A stretch of DNA of 64,000 nt from NCBI RefSeq assembly GCF_014075995.1, contig NZ_CP055153.1:6138001-6202000 (forward strand). The letters run 5' to 3'. The position numbers and the translations under genes were made by a program. The DNA comes from Adhaeribacter radiodurans (lineage in GTDB: Bacteria; Bacteroidota; Bacteroidia; Cytophagales; Hymenobacteraceae). Below are positions 4,102-8,324 of this stretch, piece by piece. Each line of letters begins with the position of its first letter. Position 1 is the stretch's first letter. The notes under the pieces are model-generated. The model was not told the DNA's origin, did no database searches, and was given only the letters and a program-made list of their open reading frames with translations.

Positions 4102-6234
4102 TCAAACATTCAGCAAATCGGCTAATACTTCCGGACGTTTTACTTCTTCGCCGCGATAAGTTTTAGCAGCGGTTAAGAAACTATCGGCTTCGGTTAAAAA
4201 TTGCAGGGCAAATTCCTGACTTGGTTCGTTCTGGTTAATTTGCAGCACATGCGTTTTAAAATCCGGATCGAAGGTAAAAGTGCCATTGGCTACAAAATGC
4301 GTATCAAAATCGTTGATAATACCAATTTGCGTATTGCAGGCTATTCCTTTACTCAACAATAATGCTTTGGCGGTACCCACAAAAATGCTGTAGCTATGAT
4401 AGATAGAATCCGCGTACATGCCGTTTTTTAAGGCTTCTACTGACCATTCCAGTTTTTCTTCTACCTCATACAACAAAGTAGCTACCAAATCAATCATTAC
4501 CCCAGCGCATTCTCCTACTCCAATTGCAGTGGCGTATTCTTCTACGTGGCCCCAGTCTTTGTAATCGTCGGGAGCCATGGTACTTAAATCGGCAAGTGGT
4601 TTTAATAACTGATAAAAATAATTTTTACCCTGACGGTCGTAGTACGAGTTAAAATATTCGCCGTCGTAAGCGTTAGTTTCAAAATCGTTGAACAGGAAGC
4701 GCAAAATGTGTGGCCCCCGCTTAGTTGGCACTTTAATTACCCGGTCAGCTACACGGCCTTCGCCGTTACCCAGCGTACCGCCACCCAGCATTACCTGTAA
4801 AGCAGGAACAACGGCATTGCCGTGTTTAATAGAGCTGCCGTGGAAACCAATATTTGCTAAACCGTGCTGCCCGCAAGAGTTCATGCAACCACTAATTTTT
4901 ATTTTAATGTCGTGGTTATATACTAAATCTGGAAACTCTTCGGCAATCATATTTTCCAGCACTTCGGCAATACCCATGCTGTTGGTAATTCCTAAATTAC
5001 AAGTATCGGTACCGGGGCAGGTAGTAATATCGGCGGTACTGTCAAAACCTGGTTTAGCTAACCCTAATTTATTTAATTCCTGAAAAAAGTAAGGTAAAGC
5101 TTCGAGCCGGATATATTTAAACAGTAAGCCTTGGTTAGCCGTTACCCGAATATCATTGGCGGCAAAATCTTTTACTAAATCGGCTATTTTACGGGCAACA
5201 TCGGTTTTGATATCGCCCATTAGCACCCGTGTTCTTACCGAATAAAAACCTTTTTGCTTTTGCTCCACTACGTTGGTTTTCAACCAGGCCTCGTAATGAT
5301 TTTGATTTAAAATTTCTACGGCCGGTATTTCCCGTTCAGGAGCTGGCTCGGGTTGTGGAATAGCGTTGCGATCGATAACGTACGATTTACTTTTATTAGC
5401 CGTACGTTCCTGTGCTACTAAATCTATAAAAGCTTCAAAGCCAATTTTAGCAATCAGGTATTTCAAACGGGCTTTATTGCGGCTGGTACGTTCCCCGTGG
5501 CGGTCAAATACCCGAATAACCGCTTCGATTAACGGAATAACCTGGTCTTCGGGTAAAAATTCATAACCGAGTTTGGCCAACATAGGCTGTGCTCCTAAAC
5601 CTCCGCCTAACACTACCCGGAAACCGCGTACTTCTTCGCCATTCTCCATTTTAACTTTAGGCACAAATCCTACATCGTGCATATAGGCCATGGCCGTATC
5701 TGCTTCTGAAGCGGAAAAACTAATTTTAAACTTCCGGCCCATATCCTGGCAAATAGGATTGCGCACAAAATACCGGAACGTTTCGTAGGCATAAGGCGAT
5801 ACATCAAATGGCTCGTTCGGGTCGATACCGGCGTCGGGGGAAGCGGTTACGTTACGTACAGTATTACCGCAAGCTTCGCGTAAAGTAATATCATCTTCGG
5901 CTAACTTAGACCATAGTTCCGGAGTGCGGTCGAGGCTCACAAAGTGAATCTGAATATCCTGCCGGGTAGTTAAATGCAAGTTTTTGCTAGCGTACTCATC
6001 GGATACATCGGCAATTTTGAGTAATTGCTTTACAGTAAAACGGCCAAAAGGCAATTTAATGCGCACCATTTGCACCCCAGGTTGGCGCTGGCCGTAAATA
6101 CCCCGGGTTAAACGTAAACTCCGGAATTTTTCGTCTGGTAGCTGACCGCCCCGGAATTGGCGTATTTTCTTGTCGAGATCAATTATTTCTTTTGAAACCA
6201 ATGGATTCTCGAATTCTGTCCGAAAACTTAACAT
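4102..6234 (-). CDS. Siroheme sulfite (nitrite) reductase with C-terminal HEPN-like domain
   Basis: A 710-residue cytosolic hemoprotein. Two nitrite/sulfite reductase half-repeats are visible. The siroheme-[4Fe-4S] cluster ligands appear as C-x5-C at Cys406/Cys412 (TTCPGTDTC) and C-x3-C at Cys450/Cys454 (SGCMNSCGQHG). The family reduces sulfite to sulfide, or nitrite to ammonia, by six electrons. Sulfite is favoured here by the siroheme synthase-TSUP fusion and MetZ downstream and by the cysteine-codon leader upstream. Residues about 575-710 are an extra helical region resembling a HEPN domain, which is unusual for the standard enzyme; its role is unknown. It is the first structural gene of the operon, and its ATG lies 38 bases after the second leader terminator. 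Confidence 0.87.
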   Translation of the reverse strand: MLSFRTEFENPLVSKEIIDLDKKIRQFRGGQLPDEKFRSLRLTRGIYGQRQPGVQMVRIKLPFGRFTVKQLLKIADVSDEYASKNLHLTTRQDIQIHFVSLDRTPELWSKLAEDDITLREACGNTVRNVTASPDAGIDPNEPFDVSPYAYETFRYFVRNPICQDMGRKFKISFSASEADTAMAYMHDVGFVPKVKMENGEEVRGFRVVLGGGLGAQPMLAKLGYEFLPEDQVIPLIEAVIRVFDRHGERTSRNKARLKYLIAKIGFEAFIDLVAQERTANKSKSYVIDRNAIPQPEPAPEREIPAVEILNQNHYEAWLKTNVVEQKQKGFYSVRTRVLMGDIKTDVARKIADLVKDFAANDIRVTANQGLLFKYIRLEALPYFFQELNKLGLAKPGFDSTADITTCPGTDTCNLGITNSMGIAEVLENMIAEEFPDLVYNHDIKIKISGCMNSCGQHGLANIGFHGSSIKHGNAVVPALQVMLGGGTLGNGEGRVADRVIKVPTKRGPHILRFLFNDFETNAYDGEYFNSYYDRQGKNYFYQLLKPLADLSTMAPDDYKDWGHVEEYATAIGVGECAGVMIDLVATLLYEVEEKLEWSVEALKNGMYADSIYHSYSIFVGTAKALLLSKGIACNTQIGIINDFDTHFVANGTFTFDPDFKTHVLQINQNEPSQEFALQFLTEADSFLTAAKTYRGEEVKRPEVLADLLNV

Positions 6235-6272
6235 ACTATATTTCTTTATTTTCTTTTATCCAACTTAATACT

Positions 6273-6304
6273 AAAAAGGCCTTTTCTTACTTAAAGAAAG
6301 GCCC
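6273..6304 (-). terminator. Attenuator terminator 2, before the sulfite reductase gene
   Basis: Read on the minus strand, GGCCTTTCTT pairs with AAGAAAAGGCC (one bulged A) around a short TAAGT loop, followed directly by TTTTT. It sits between the second cysteine-rich leader ORF (stop at 6340) and the sulfite reductase ATG at 6234, with no complete gene before it other than the leaders. That is the hallmark of an attenuator rather than a gene-end terminator. A leader segment GCCTTTT at 6327-6333 could pair with AAAAGGC of the 3' arm (6279-6285) and disrupt it. Confidence 0.85.
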
Positions 6305-6339
6305 AACACACAACTATTTACTTTATAAAAGGCAATAGC

Positions 6340-6405
6340 TTATAATGGCCCATCATTCGCAGCACAACAACACATACAACAACAGGAAGCAAGAGTATAT
6401 ACCAT
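6340..6405 (-). CDS. Cysteine-rich leader peptide 2
   Basis: A 21-codon ORF (ATG at 6405-6403, TAA at 6342-6340) encodes a peptide with six cysteines in seven codons: TGT TGT TGT ATG TGT TGT TGT, giving SCCCMCCCAA. The start is preceded by AT-rich sequence without a Shine-Dalgarno motif, as is normal in this phylum. The terminator stem begins 36 bases after the stop. Together they match the layout of amino-acid attenuators, in which ribosome stalling at scarce-Cys codons changes leader folding. The peptide itself probably has no function. It is too short for ordinary gene callers. Confidence 0.85.
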   Translation of the reverse strand: MVYTLASCCCMCCCAANDGPL

Positions 6406-6442
6406 ATTATCTATATCGTTTTAATAGAATTAGCCCGGAATT

Positions 6443-6476
6443 AAAAAGGCCTTTCCTGGTTTGCAGAAAAGGCCTT
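6443..6476 (-). terminator. Attenuator terminator 1
   Basis: On the minus strand AAGGCCTTTTCTG pairs with CAGGAAAGGCCTT (13 bp, one G-U) around a CAAAC loop, then TTTTT. It lies 21 bases after the stop of the first leader ORF and before the second one. An alternative 12-bp pairing is available between the 5' arm (6476-6464) and CAGGGAAGGCTT at 6511-6500, inside the last codons of leader 1, with two G-U pairs and one bulged G. That would be the antiterminator. Confidence 0.88.
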
Positions 6477-6497
6477 AATTAAAAATATATTTTACAA

Positions 6498-6587
6498 TCA
6501 AGCCTTCCCTGCCAAAGCCATACAACAGAAACCACAGCATGCCATGGAATTGCAGAAAATAGCAGAAAAAGCGTTTTGTGTATTCAT
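6498..6587 (-). CDS. Cysteine-rich leader peptide 1
   Basis: A 29-codon ORF (ATG at 6587-6585, TGA at 6500-6498) contains five cysteine codons, four of them clustered in ACCGFCCM. The final codons (GCA GGG AAG GCT TGA) contain the proposed antiterminator strand. A ribosome reaching the stop codon would cover that strand and allow the terminator at 6443-6476 to form, whereas one stalled at the Cys codons would leave it free. This is the textbook logic of his/trp-type attenuation, here read as cysteine sensing. It is the first ORF of the sulfur operon transcript and has no Shine-Dalgarno sequence. Confidence 0.85.
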   Translation of the reverse strand: MNTQNAFSAIFCNSMACCGFCCMALAGKA

Positions 6588-6610
6588 TATTTTATTTAAT
6601 GCCGTAAATA

Positions 6611-6618
6611 TAAAGGTA
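6611..6618 (-). promoter_or_regulatory. Possible -7 element of the sulfur operon
   Basis: The minus strand reads TACCTTTA, one mismatch from the Bacteroidota -7 consensus TAnnTTTG, placing a start site about 20 bases before leader peptide 1. No clear TTG -33 element is at the usual distance. The rest of the 6,619-6,791 stretch up to the protease gene is AT-rich with nothing else I can name. Confidence 0.3.
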
Positions 6619-6791
6619 TGTTACGAACTTCCAGCAGCTTAGATTTATTTTTTTTAAGAAAGCTCCAAAACAATTGCGGCTTATGCAAGCAAATAACATT
6701 TTTATTAGGTAATTGTTCCGTAAAACTTTTAAAATTATAGATTCATAACCTTTACCAGTACCAAACCCCAAAGAATTTTACATTTTAAAAA

Positions 6792-8324
6792 TTACCTTGA
6801 TATTATTAACTTTTTTGTTTCAATTAATTTATTGGCATACCATAACCGACAATAGTACATTCCATTAGCAAGGTTCGGGAGCTTTAAAAGTACAAAGTTA
6901 TCTGTAGCAGCTTGGGTTAAGACTACTTGTCCCACACTATTTACTATTTGAACTTGCTGTAATTCTTTATTCGCGGGAGCTACTATTGAAACTTGCTCTT
7001 GAGCCGGATTAGGAAAAATAACCGGTTCTGTTCCAGTTACGCGGATGTATTGCGTTTTAGTAACCGCATCGGATATAGAACTAAAACTGGCCGTAAACGA
7101 AACGGCGTAAATACCTGGCTGATCGTACCGAACCATTGGGTTCTGTTCTGTAGAAGTAGCGATGTTACCCCCTTCAAACGCCCAGGCCCATCCGTTGGCT
7201 CGTACTCCAATACTAGCATCCTGAAACTGCACCGTTGTTCCAGCTACAATAATAGTATCAGATACTTCGAAATCGGCGGTGAGCGGACTGGTACACACCA
7301 CTGCCGTAGTTAATATATTCTGACGGACAGTACTTAAGATGCTTTGCATGTATTCGGCCTGATCCTGCGTAAACAAATTCATACAGGCATCATCGGTATA
7401 ATCGAGAAAGTTCTGGTACATATTGCCGCCTGCCGAGCCATTGCTACAGGATTCTACTTTGCCCGTTGGGCAACCAGTAGAAGGCTTATCCTGATTAGGG
7501 GTATCATTAATATCATCGGAGTCGTTACAACTACCTGTATCGTTAGTGCCCCAGATATGTTGTAATCCCAACCAATGAGCAATTTCATGCGTACCCGTAC
7601 GGCCTAAATTAAATCTGGAGGCAAACGGATTAGCGGGTGCCCGGCCAATAGTGGTATAATCCAACACTACTCCATCTGTTTCGGCAAGACTACCTGGATA
7701 TTGCGCGTAACCAAGAGTTTTACTTTGAAGGTTACATACCCAAATATTTAAATACCGTTCACTATCCCAAGCATTCTGACCGCCATAAACTGAAAATTTA
7801 ACGGCATCGTCCTGATCAAATTCAGTAGTGGAGGTAAACTTGCGTGTAACACCCGTAGTAGGATTACCTTTGGGGTCACGGGTAGCTAAACAAAATTGAA
7901 TGCGGGAGTCGGCAGCCACGCCTTTAAACTGCGGCAATGTTTGGGAAGAATCCGCATTAAGGCGACGATAATCTTCGTTTAAAATTTCTAATTGCGAGAG
8001 TATCTGCTCGGTAGATATGTTTTCCTGACTAGTGTGATACACCACATGAAATACCACCGGCACTACGGTTACTGGTTGTTGCAACCGCGCCAACTTTTTC
8101 TGCTGCCGATACTTTTGAGCCCGTTTCTTTGCTTTTTGCATTTGATTAAGTAAATCCGGGTGAAGTTGCTGCAAGCGTTGTGTTACTTCGTTGGTGGCGC
8201 AGCGAGGTTTTGGATTTGGTTGTTGCGCCATAACAGTACCCGCTAGTAAAAGTAGCCAGATAATACAAACAGAATTAGTTAAACGCAAGGAGATAATTTT
8301 CAAAACTGGTAGAAGTTTAAGCAT
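6792..8324 (-). CDS. Secreted M43-family zinc metalloprotease with PKD domain and T9SS sorting tail
   Basis: A 510-residue exported protease. An N-terminal signal peptide (hydrophobic IIWLLLLAGTVMA ending near residue 33) is followed by a propeptide and the catalytic domain. Its HEIAHWLGLQH motif carries the zinc ligands His246, His250 and His256 and catalytic Glu247, the extended HExxHxxGxxH of pappalysin/cytophagalysin-type M43 enzymes. A PKD-like domain spans about residues 345-425. The last 80 residues, starting FPNPAQEQVSI, form a type A T9SS C-terminal sorting domain ending in KKLIISR, so it should be exported through the outer membrane and released or anchored. The gene stands alone. 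Its 3' end lies some 170 bases from the putative sulfur operon promoter. Confidence 0.92.
   Translation of the reverse strand: MLKLLPVLKIISLRLTNSVCIIWLLLLAGTVMAQQPNPKPRCATNEVTQRLQQLHPDLLNQMQKAKKRAQKYRQQKKLARLQQPVTVVPVVFHVVYHTSQENISTEQILSQLEILNEDYRRLNADSSQTLPQFKGVAADSRIQFCLATRDPKGNPTTGVTRKFTSTTEFDQDDAVKFSVYGGQNAWDSERYLNIWVCNLQSKTLGYAQYPGSLAETDGVVLDYTTIGRAPANPFASRFNLGRTGTHEIAHWLGLQHIWGTNDTGSCNDSDDINDTPNQDKPSTGCPTGKVESCSNGSAGGNMYQNFLDYTDDACMNLFTQDQAEYMQSILSTVRQNILTTAVVCTSPLTADFEVSDTIIVAGTTVQFQDASIGVRANGWAWAFEGGNIATSTEQNPMVRYDQPGIYAVSFTASFSSISDAVTKTQYIRVTGTEPVIFPNPAQEQVSIVAPANKELQQVQIVNSVGQVVLTQAATDNFVLLKLPNLANGMYYCRLWYANKLIETKKLIISR

Follow-up and report, generated by a model that had tools for sequence, protein, structure and literature searches.

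Leader-peptide attenuation has long been known as a mechanism in which a short leader ORF carrying regulatory codons is followed by mutually exclusive antiterminator and terminator structures, such that a ribosome stalled on those codons frees the antiterminator. Poly-Cys leaders of cys operons in Mycobacterium were reportedly described by Canestrari in 2020. For poly-Cys leaders of sulfur operons in Mycobacterium and other Actinobacteria, the available excerpt of PMC1262725 gives a Cys run near the stop codon and no conserved terminators. According to the excerpt of PMC8632094, the uORFC-8-2 motif, which lies before cysS in Rhodobacterales, consists of a Cys-codon uORF and an intrinsic terminator, and transcription attenuation has been proposed for it. 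Two leader ORFs with attenuators within a single leader are described for Salmonella mgtCBR, where they answer ATP and proline (PMC3641672, in excerpt). In the phylum considered here, the Bacteroidota, leader-peptide attenuators of amino acid operons are reported in the excerpted parts of PMC9723704 (Flavobacterium) and PMC2864571 (the Bacteroid-trp RNA).

Here we describe a leader in which, judging from its sequence and from comparison with relatives, two ribosome-mediated transcription attenuators in series most likely control a sulfur assimilation operon, with Cys-tRNA probably being the signal sensed. The tandem switch design is very probably real, because relatives keep it. Leader translation and the response to Cys-tRNA are predicted to work as follows. 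Transcription would begin just before the first leader ORF. With ample Cys-tRNA, the leading ribosome would reach the stop codon and cover the antiterminator strand, and the terminator would form; when Cys-tRNA is short, the ribosome would halt on the Cys codons, the antiterminator strand would capture the 5′ arm of the terminator, and polymerase would read on. Because the same decision would be taken again at the second unit, readthrough into the operon would be roughly the product of the two individual readthroughs.

The tandem leader and its operon

The leader lies on the minus strand of the window (the whole 64-kb stretch of DNA that was analyzed), between the end of a Pfam M43-type peptidase gene at 6792 and the ATG of a siroheme reductase gene at 6234, and consists of ORF1, terminator 1, ORF2, and terminator 2, in that order, followed by the reductase gene. 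Leader ORF1 (6587-6498; MNTQNAFSAIFCNSMACCGFCCMALAGKA) has 29 codons and carries the Cys cluster CCGFCC at 6539-6522, and leader ORF2 (6405-6340; MVYTLASCCCMCCCAANDGPL) has 21 codons and carries CCCMCCC at 6384-6364; in each of them, 7 codons separate the last Cys from the leader end. Terminator 1 (6476-6443) comprises a hairpin at 6476-6446 (−18.4 kcal/mol) and a U tract running to 6443. Terminator 2 (6304-6273), which is also present in 3 of 3 close congeners, comprises a hairpin at 6304-6277 (−12.3 kcal/mol) and a U tract running to 6273, with 38 nt between the U tract and the reductase ATG. The two Cys mini-ORFs with their terminators were thus found where the original prediction had placed them, and, apart from ORF1 and ORF2, no ATG mini-ORF (8 to 45 amino acids, both strands) of the 64-kb window has 4 or more Cys within 8 codons. 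Two hallmarks of trp/his-type attenuators are therefore present: codons for the pathway product are clustered in a short leader ORF of a sulfur assimilation operon, and an intrinsic terminator stands between the leader ORF and the first gene in both units.

A hairpin scanner listed terminator 1 and not terminator 2, and over 14 kb it returned 15 hairpins against a shuffle mean of 15.1; the fold of the whole leader was moderately better than that of shuffled sequences (z = −1.94; 4 of 100 shuffles were as good). The hairpins of the window consequently matter through their place and conservation and not through their number. An Rfam scan of the window gave no family at the gathering score, Bacteroid-trp (RF01692) and SAM-I (RF00162) included; at an E value of ≤5, only weak, unrelated families and no SAM-I appeared in 6200-6800. 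A tRNA scan of the window found none.

A putative −7 promoter box (TATATTTA, 6612-6605) lies 17 nt before ORF1 and fits the consensus TAnnTTTG taken from the excerpt of PMC9723704. Across the genus, all 12 leaders have a TAnnTTTR box that begins 23 to 28 nt upstream of their first Cys ATG. Additional TAnnTTTR boxes occur elsewhere within several leaders; L004 and L005 have a TAnnTTTG match immediately ahead of terminator 2, and L003 has a box behind its terminator 2. We place the likely transcription start just before ORF1.

The first gene of the operon (6234-4102, minus strand) encodes a siroheme nitrite/sulfite reductase-family protein (Pfam NIR_SIR and NIR_SIR_ferr), for which every NCBIfam match was below the cutoff. 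It is followed on the same strand by a gene for a single protein in which siroheme synthase (the CysG N-terminal part) is fused to a TauE-type sulfite exporter (3864-2308) and by a gene for O-succinylhomoserine sulfhydrylase (2202-1030; NCBIfam NF006003, above the cutoff), and a PhzF-like gene lies further downstream. Because the neighbors are the siroheme synthase-TauE fusion and the sulfhydrylase, we favor sulfite over nitrite as the substrate. The original prediction had named the gene a sulfite reductase outright; Pfam confirms the family, no NCBIfam model at its cutoff confirms the substrate, and it is the neighbors that point to sulfite.

Predicted competing RNA structures in the two units

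For each of 22 ORF-plus-terminator units of the genus, we tested the stretch of RNA from the last Cys codon up to the hairpin for pairing with the 5′ arm of the terminator. The antiterminator duplex was better than that of shuffled sequences (P ≤ 0.04) in 18 of the 22 units, and the four failures (P = 0.10 to 0.28) were unit 2 of the window (P = 0.13) and unit 2 of its three closest relatives. In unit 1 of the window, the antiterminator strand (13 nt, 6512-6500), assigned from duplex energy and covariation, forms 13 contiguous pairs with 6475-6463, the 5′ arm of terminator 1. Three of these pairs are G-U, there is no bulge, and the energy is −21.2 kcal/mol (P = 0.003, the lowest value attainable with 300 shuffles). 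This is slightly better than the duplex of 12 bp with two G-U pairs and one bulge that had been predicted. The strand sits directly behind the Cys codons, and in unit 1 antiterminator and terminator are mutually exclusive, as in attenuators of the trp/his type.

The relatives also provided the covariation of terminator and antiterminator on which the prediction could be judged. At one position of unit 1, the bases in the antiterminator, the 5′ arm, and the 3′ arm read G-C-G, G-U-A, G-U-G, and A-U-A, and triplets that change together in this way fit two mutually exclusive helices sharing one strand. The pair tables were made unit by unit because MAFFT alignments shift the terminator arms between groups.

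We then modeled the switch in all 22 units by folding the full-length RNA at equilibrium with ribosome masks. A ribosome at the stop codon favored the terminator in all 22 units. Only 11 of them had a Cys codon at which a ribosome brought the terminator probability below 0.5, and in 4 of the 22 the terminator was not favored when no ribosome was present. In window unit 1, the terminator probability was 0.01 to 0.03 with the ribosome on the first three codons of the cluster, 0.89 on the fourth, and 0.98 at the stop codon. In a kinetic version of the model, folding under the ribosome mask was halted before the 3′ arm of the terminator; because this version was devised after the outcome of 11 of 22 at equilibrium had been seen, it re-examines the same question and does not count as an independent test. 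In this version, a ribosome placed on the first Cys codon gave every one of the 22 units an antiterminator probability of 0.54 to 1.00, and placing it at the stop codon instead lowered the value to 0.31 or less in all but one of them (21 of 22). The one that stood apart was window unit 2, in which stall and stop were hardly separated (0.66 versus 0.59); the corresponding values for window unit 1 were 0.92 and 0.01.

The second antiterminator of the original prediction, a pairing of GCCTTTT (6333-6327) with AAAAGGC, can be drawn in the window but lacks conservation, since three close congeners have GCATTTT, GCGTTCT, and ACATTCT in place of GCCTTTT.

A different structure can be proposed for unit 2. 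A 53-nt hairpin at 6352-6300 closes GGGCC on the GGGCC of the 5′ arm of terminator 2 around a helper stem, so that it overlaps that arm, and at −15.4 kcal/mol it compares well with the −12.3 kcal/mol of terminator 2; in three relatives, too, terminator 2 does not exceed the alternative hairpin in strength. An RNAalifold consensus of just four sequences kept the helper stem (with one double-sided change) together with terminator 2, lacked the closing pairs, and paired GGGCC with terminator 2. That unit 2 might act through this candidate hairpin is thinly supported, and the case for the attenuation mechanism is good in unit 1 and weaker in unit 2.

These observations bear on the alternative that unit 1 alone works, the second ORF and its terminator being, in the clade of the window, a copy that is decaying or has been put to another use. 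It would account for the nonsignificant duplexes of unit 2 in the window and its three close congeners, for the poor separation of stall from stop in the window, and for a consensus fold that retains terminator 2 and not the closing pairs of the alternative. However, all four genomes retain an ORF2 with 5 to 6 Cys codons and an intact terminator 2, and each can also form an alternative hairpin at least equal in strength to that terminator; the unit 2 antiterminator is strong in both genomes scored from the other subclade (L007 and L031); and the tandem leaders at a second locus, before a cysM-like gene (described below), passed the antiterminator test in 8 of 8 units. We therefore regard a working unit 1 with a defunct or repurposed unit 2 as unlikely, if far from negligible, and prefer two attenuators in series.

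Cysteine leaders in relatives and at other loci

Regions upstream of homologues of the reductase gene were collected from 195 loci (sets of 30, 25, and 60 loci, and 80 kept out of 591 relatives), of which 184 were used after 11 that were duplicates, truncated, or contained N had been dropped. Dense-Cys mini-ORFs (at least 4 Cys in 8 codons) were present in 44 of 184 loci, compared with 1 of 184 for the reverse complement and 0 to 1 of 184 for five dinucleotide shuffles, although these counts are not independent, since close relatives and near-duplicates (e.g., L108 and L109) are included. At 3 in 8 codons, the corresponding figures were 59 loci, 13 for the reverse complement, and 0 to 11 for the shuffles; 125 of 184 loci had no Cys leader at this looser threshold, among them L015, whose leader slightly exceeds the length limit. 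When amino acids were compared against the reverse strand at 4 in 8, the excess for Cys (44 versus 1) was approached by no other amino acid, those for Val (10 versus 1) and Lys (10 versus 2) being small; the amino acid shuffles covered C, W, H, F, Y, and M.

Within the genus of the window, at least one Cys leader precedes the reductase gene in 8 of 8 genomes (its own genome counted) and two do so in 7 of 8, with a single leader in G029 (L008); in L006, the T tract of the second hairpin was too poor to pass the terminator scan. The conservation of Cys-rich mini-ORFs before reductase genes in Bacteroidota, without which the original prediction would have failed, is thus borne out by 44 of 184 loci and by all 8 genomes of the genus that were compared. 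The Cys codons of the leaders are TGT (78) and TGC (33). Because the two are mixed and the peptides differ outside the Cys clusters, it is cysteine and not the RNA letters that is conserved. Cys leaders before the reductase gene also occur elsewhere in the phylum, for example in Pedobacter, Mucilaginibacter, and Chitinophaga. Outside the genus of the window and a related genus, g3, the raw count of Cys-leader loci with a terminator-like hairpin behind the Cys run is 24 of 30, and two of these loci (L094 and L258) have tandem Cys leaders with a terminator at each unit.

A second way in which such leaders could work is through translation of the downstream gene, as in the mycobacterial poly-Cys type, the hairpins being incidental. 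Mycobacterial poly-Cys uORFs are cited as translation attenuators in the excerpt of PMC13236596 and are without conserved terminators as far as the excerpt of PMC1262725 goes, and the poly-Cys leaders of g3 likewise have poorly supported terminators. In the genus of the window, however, hairpins that end in U tracts come after the Cys ORFs, the antiterminators covary with both arms of these hairpins, and terminator 2 ends 38 nt before the reductase ATG, all of which makes purely translational control quite improbable there.

Six loci outside the genus (L100, L108, L109, L124, L168, and L216) share the leader motif R-C-[AE]-C-W-[FH]-W-C-C before the reductase gene (RRACWFWCC in L216). The peptides of these Cys/Trp-motif leaders are more conserved than leader peptides elsewhere, and such leaders could also sense Trp or act as peptides. 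Small Cys-rich peptides are able to bind metals, and a shared CxCWxWCC motif in some leaders of other families is what one would expect if the mini-ORFs encoded functional Cys-rich peptides (binding metal or sulfide, or modified). Such a role of the mini-ORFs is very improbable, there being little likeness between loci outside the Cys run, while the residues after the run track the antiterminator RNA.

Searches of the genome of the window for runs of Cys codons gave 45 and 54 matches, and among the 30 loci of each that were read there was one new tandem leader (L041, G000:C2:1381600-1381925), again with two Cys leaders, each with a terminator. It precedes a cysM-like gene (NCBIfam match below the cutoff), which is followed by JAB, ThiF/MoeB-rhodanese, and cysH genes; cysQ lies upstream of this cluster and cysC lies on the other strand. 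The tandem arrangement is conserved in the three congeners in which the cysM-like gene was found. In three other congeners, a single Cys leader stands behind a cysQ-like gene and before a moeB-like gene or a rhodanese-cysH-like pair (genes named by eye). The eighth genome of the genus, fragmented into 680 contigs, yielded no Cys leader associated with cysQ, moeB, or cysH by the covariance model described next.

This model was built from 18 units, the RNAalifold consensus of which consisted of a 7-pair antiterminator only. In the genome of the window, it matched, at E < 0.01, only unit 1 of the reductase leader and the two units of the cysM locus; window unit 2 was not matched at E ≤ 10 (best 150 of 9169 candidates scored). 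Across the 8 genomes of the genus, there were 7 matches at E < 0.001 outside the training set. Five were Cys leaders before sulfur genes (L293, L302, L294, L299, and L300), L293 and L302 being second units before the reductase gene, and the other two were gene-end terminators (L298 and L303). Terminators of the GGAAAGGC type also occur at ordinary gene ends in genomes of the genus. Because terminators with this arm are generic in these genomes, likeness between terminators is no proof of the mechanism and no evidence of duplication.

The weakest alternative, that the hairpins are transcription ends of the peptidase gene, which does end upstream (6792) on the same strand, and that the Cys ORFs arose by chance, is hardly credible given the conservation, covariation, and enrichment of the Cys leaders, the promoter-like box between the peptidase gene and ORF1, and the same anatomy at the cysM-like locus.

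Set against these alternatives, the proposal that Cys-tRNA governs the operon by attenuation has gained from the conserved Cys runs and terminators, the covarying antiterminator, the second locus, and the model matches. Its account of unit 2 has fared less well, the antiterminator there being weak and not the one originally drawn.

In g3 (L009 to L030), a poly-Cys leader ORF precedes the reductase gene in 22 of 22 loci, and in all 22 a SAM-I aptamer ends 2 to 9 nt (mostly 8) before the ATG of that ORF, so that SAM could decide whether the Cys leader is translated. The same order of aptamer and leader, with a spacing of 8 to 12 nt, was found at L177, L178, and L179, from two further families, and in most SAM-linked leaders the Cys run is at the end of the leader ORF. 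Some g3 loci, including L026 and L029, contain a second mini-ORF with a CCCC run and a GMRAC end between the poly-Cys ORF and the reductase gene; it is possibly a degenerate second unit.

The genome of the window has two SAM-I aptamers, one of which (L308, G000:C2:601941-602046, minus strand) is closely followed by a 36-codon ORF ending in GCCSC and then by a gene for a PLP enzyme of Cys/Met metabolism; the terminator scan found no terminator at L308. Four other leaders of the genus scanned before the reductase gene (L003, L005, L008, and L031) lack a SAM-I aptamer. RF00162 was matched in 127 of 148 genomes of a phylum sample, and a dense-Cys ORF lay behind the aptamer in 0 of the best 30 RF00162 loci of that sample; the pairing of SAM with Cys is therefore not general.

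The two units of the window may also communicate. A duplex at −16.4 kcal/mol can be drawn between the 3′ arm of terminator 1 and the 5′ arm of terminator 2. Of 10 tandem leaders, 9 gave −10.5 to −16.4 kcal/mol for this duplex and L031 gave −3.8 kcal/mol; these are raw energies from genomes whose terminators share sequence. Antitermination at unit 1 would free the 3′ arm of terminator 1 to pair with the 5′ arm of terminator 2, and one stall could then open both units. We offer, tentatively and as a possibility that may well prove wrong, that the leader before the reductase gene is, in this bacterial family, a modular sensor of two sulfur signals, with a SAM-gated Cys leader in g3 and a relay between units in the genus of the window. 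The aptamer and poly-Cys leader found side by side across g3 could reveal how a single RNA integrates two sulfur signals.

Relation to known attenuators

The analysis provides a concrete candidate RNA mechanism for the control of sulfur assimilation in Bacteroidota. Two units in series may steepen the response, and the presence of a homotypic tandem at two loci of one genome offers a natural test of whether a doubled switch does so.

No Bacteroidota Cys attenuator and no homotypic Cys tandem was named among the matches listed from the open-licence PMC literature, the excerpts of PMC7366714 and PMC2965389 naming no Bacteroidota Cys attenuator either. Within those matches, the original view that the double form had not been described in this phylum stands. 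The leaders of Flavobacterium and the Bacteroid-trp RNA share leader attenuation with the window, but the excerpts of PMC9723704 and PMC2864571 name no Cys attenuator.

The mycobacterial poly-Cys leaders are like those of the window in that they precede sulfur operons and their ORFs contain Cys codons in runs. Their translational uORF type was considered for the window and did not match, as the window units have terminators and 7 codons after the last Cys. The uORFC-8-2 motif, as presented in the excerpt of PMC8632094, differs from the window in having two Cys codons and one unit, in preceding a tRNA synthetase gene, and in belonging to Alphaproteobacteria. The units of mgtCBR answer different signals (PMC3641672, in excerpt), whereas both units of the window carry Cys codons.

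With trp/his-type attenuators, the window shares a regulatory-codon ORF and a competing antiterminator and intrinsic terminator. It differs from them in that cysteine would be sensed, in that two units stand in series, in that it belongs to the Bacteroidota, and in that the last part of the leader ORF itself supplies the strand of antiterminator 1. Taken together, these comparisons suggest that leader attenuation, Cys leaders elsewhere, and heterotypic tandems are known and that what appears to be new here is a homotypic Cys tandem in Bacteroidota.
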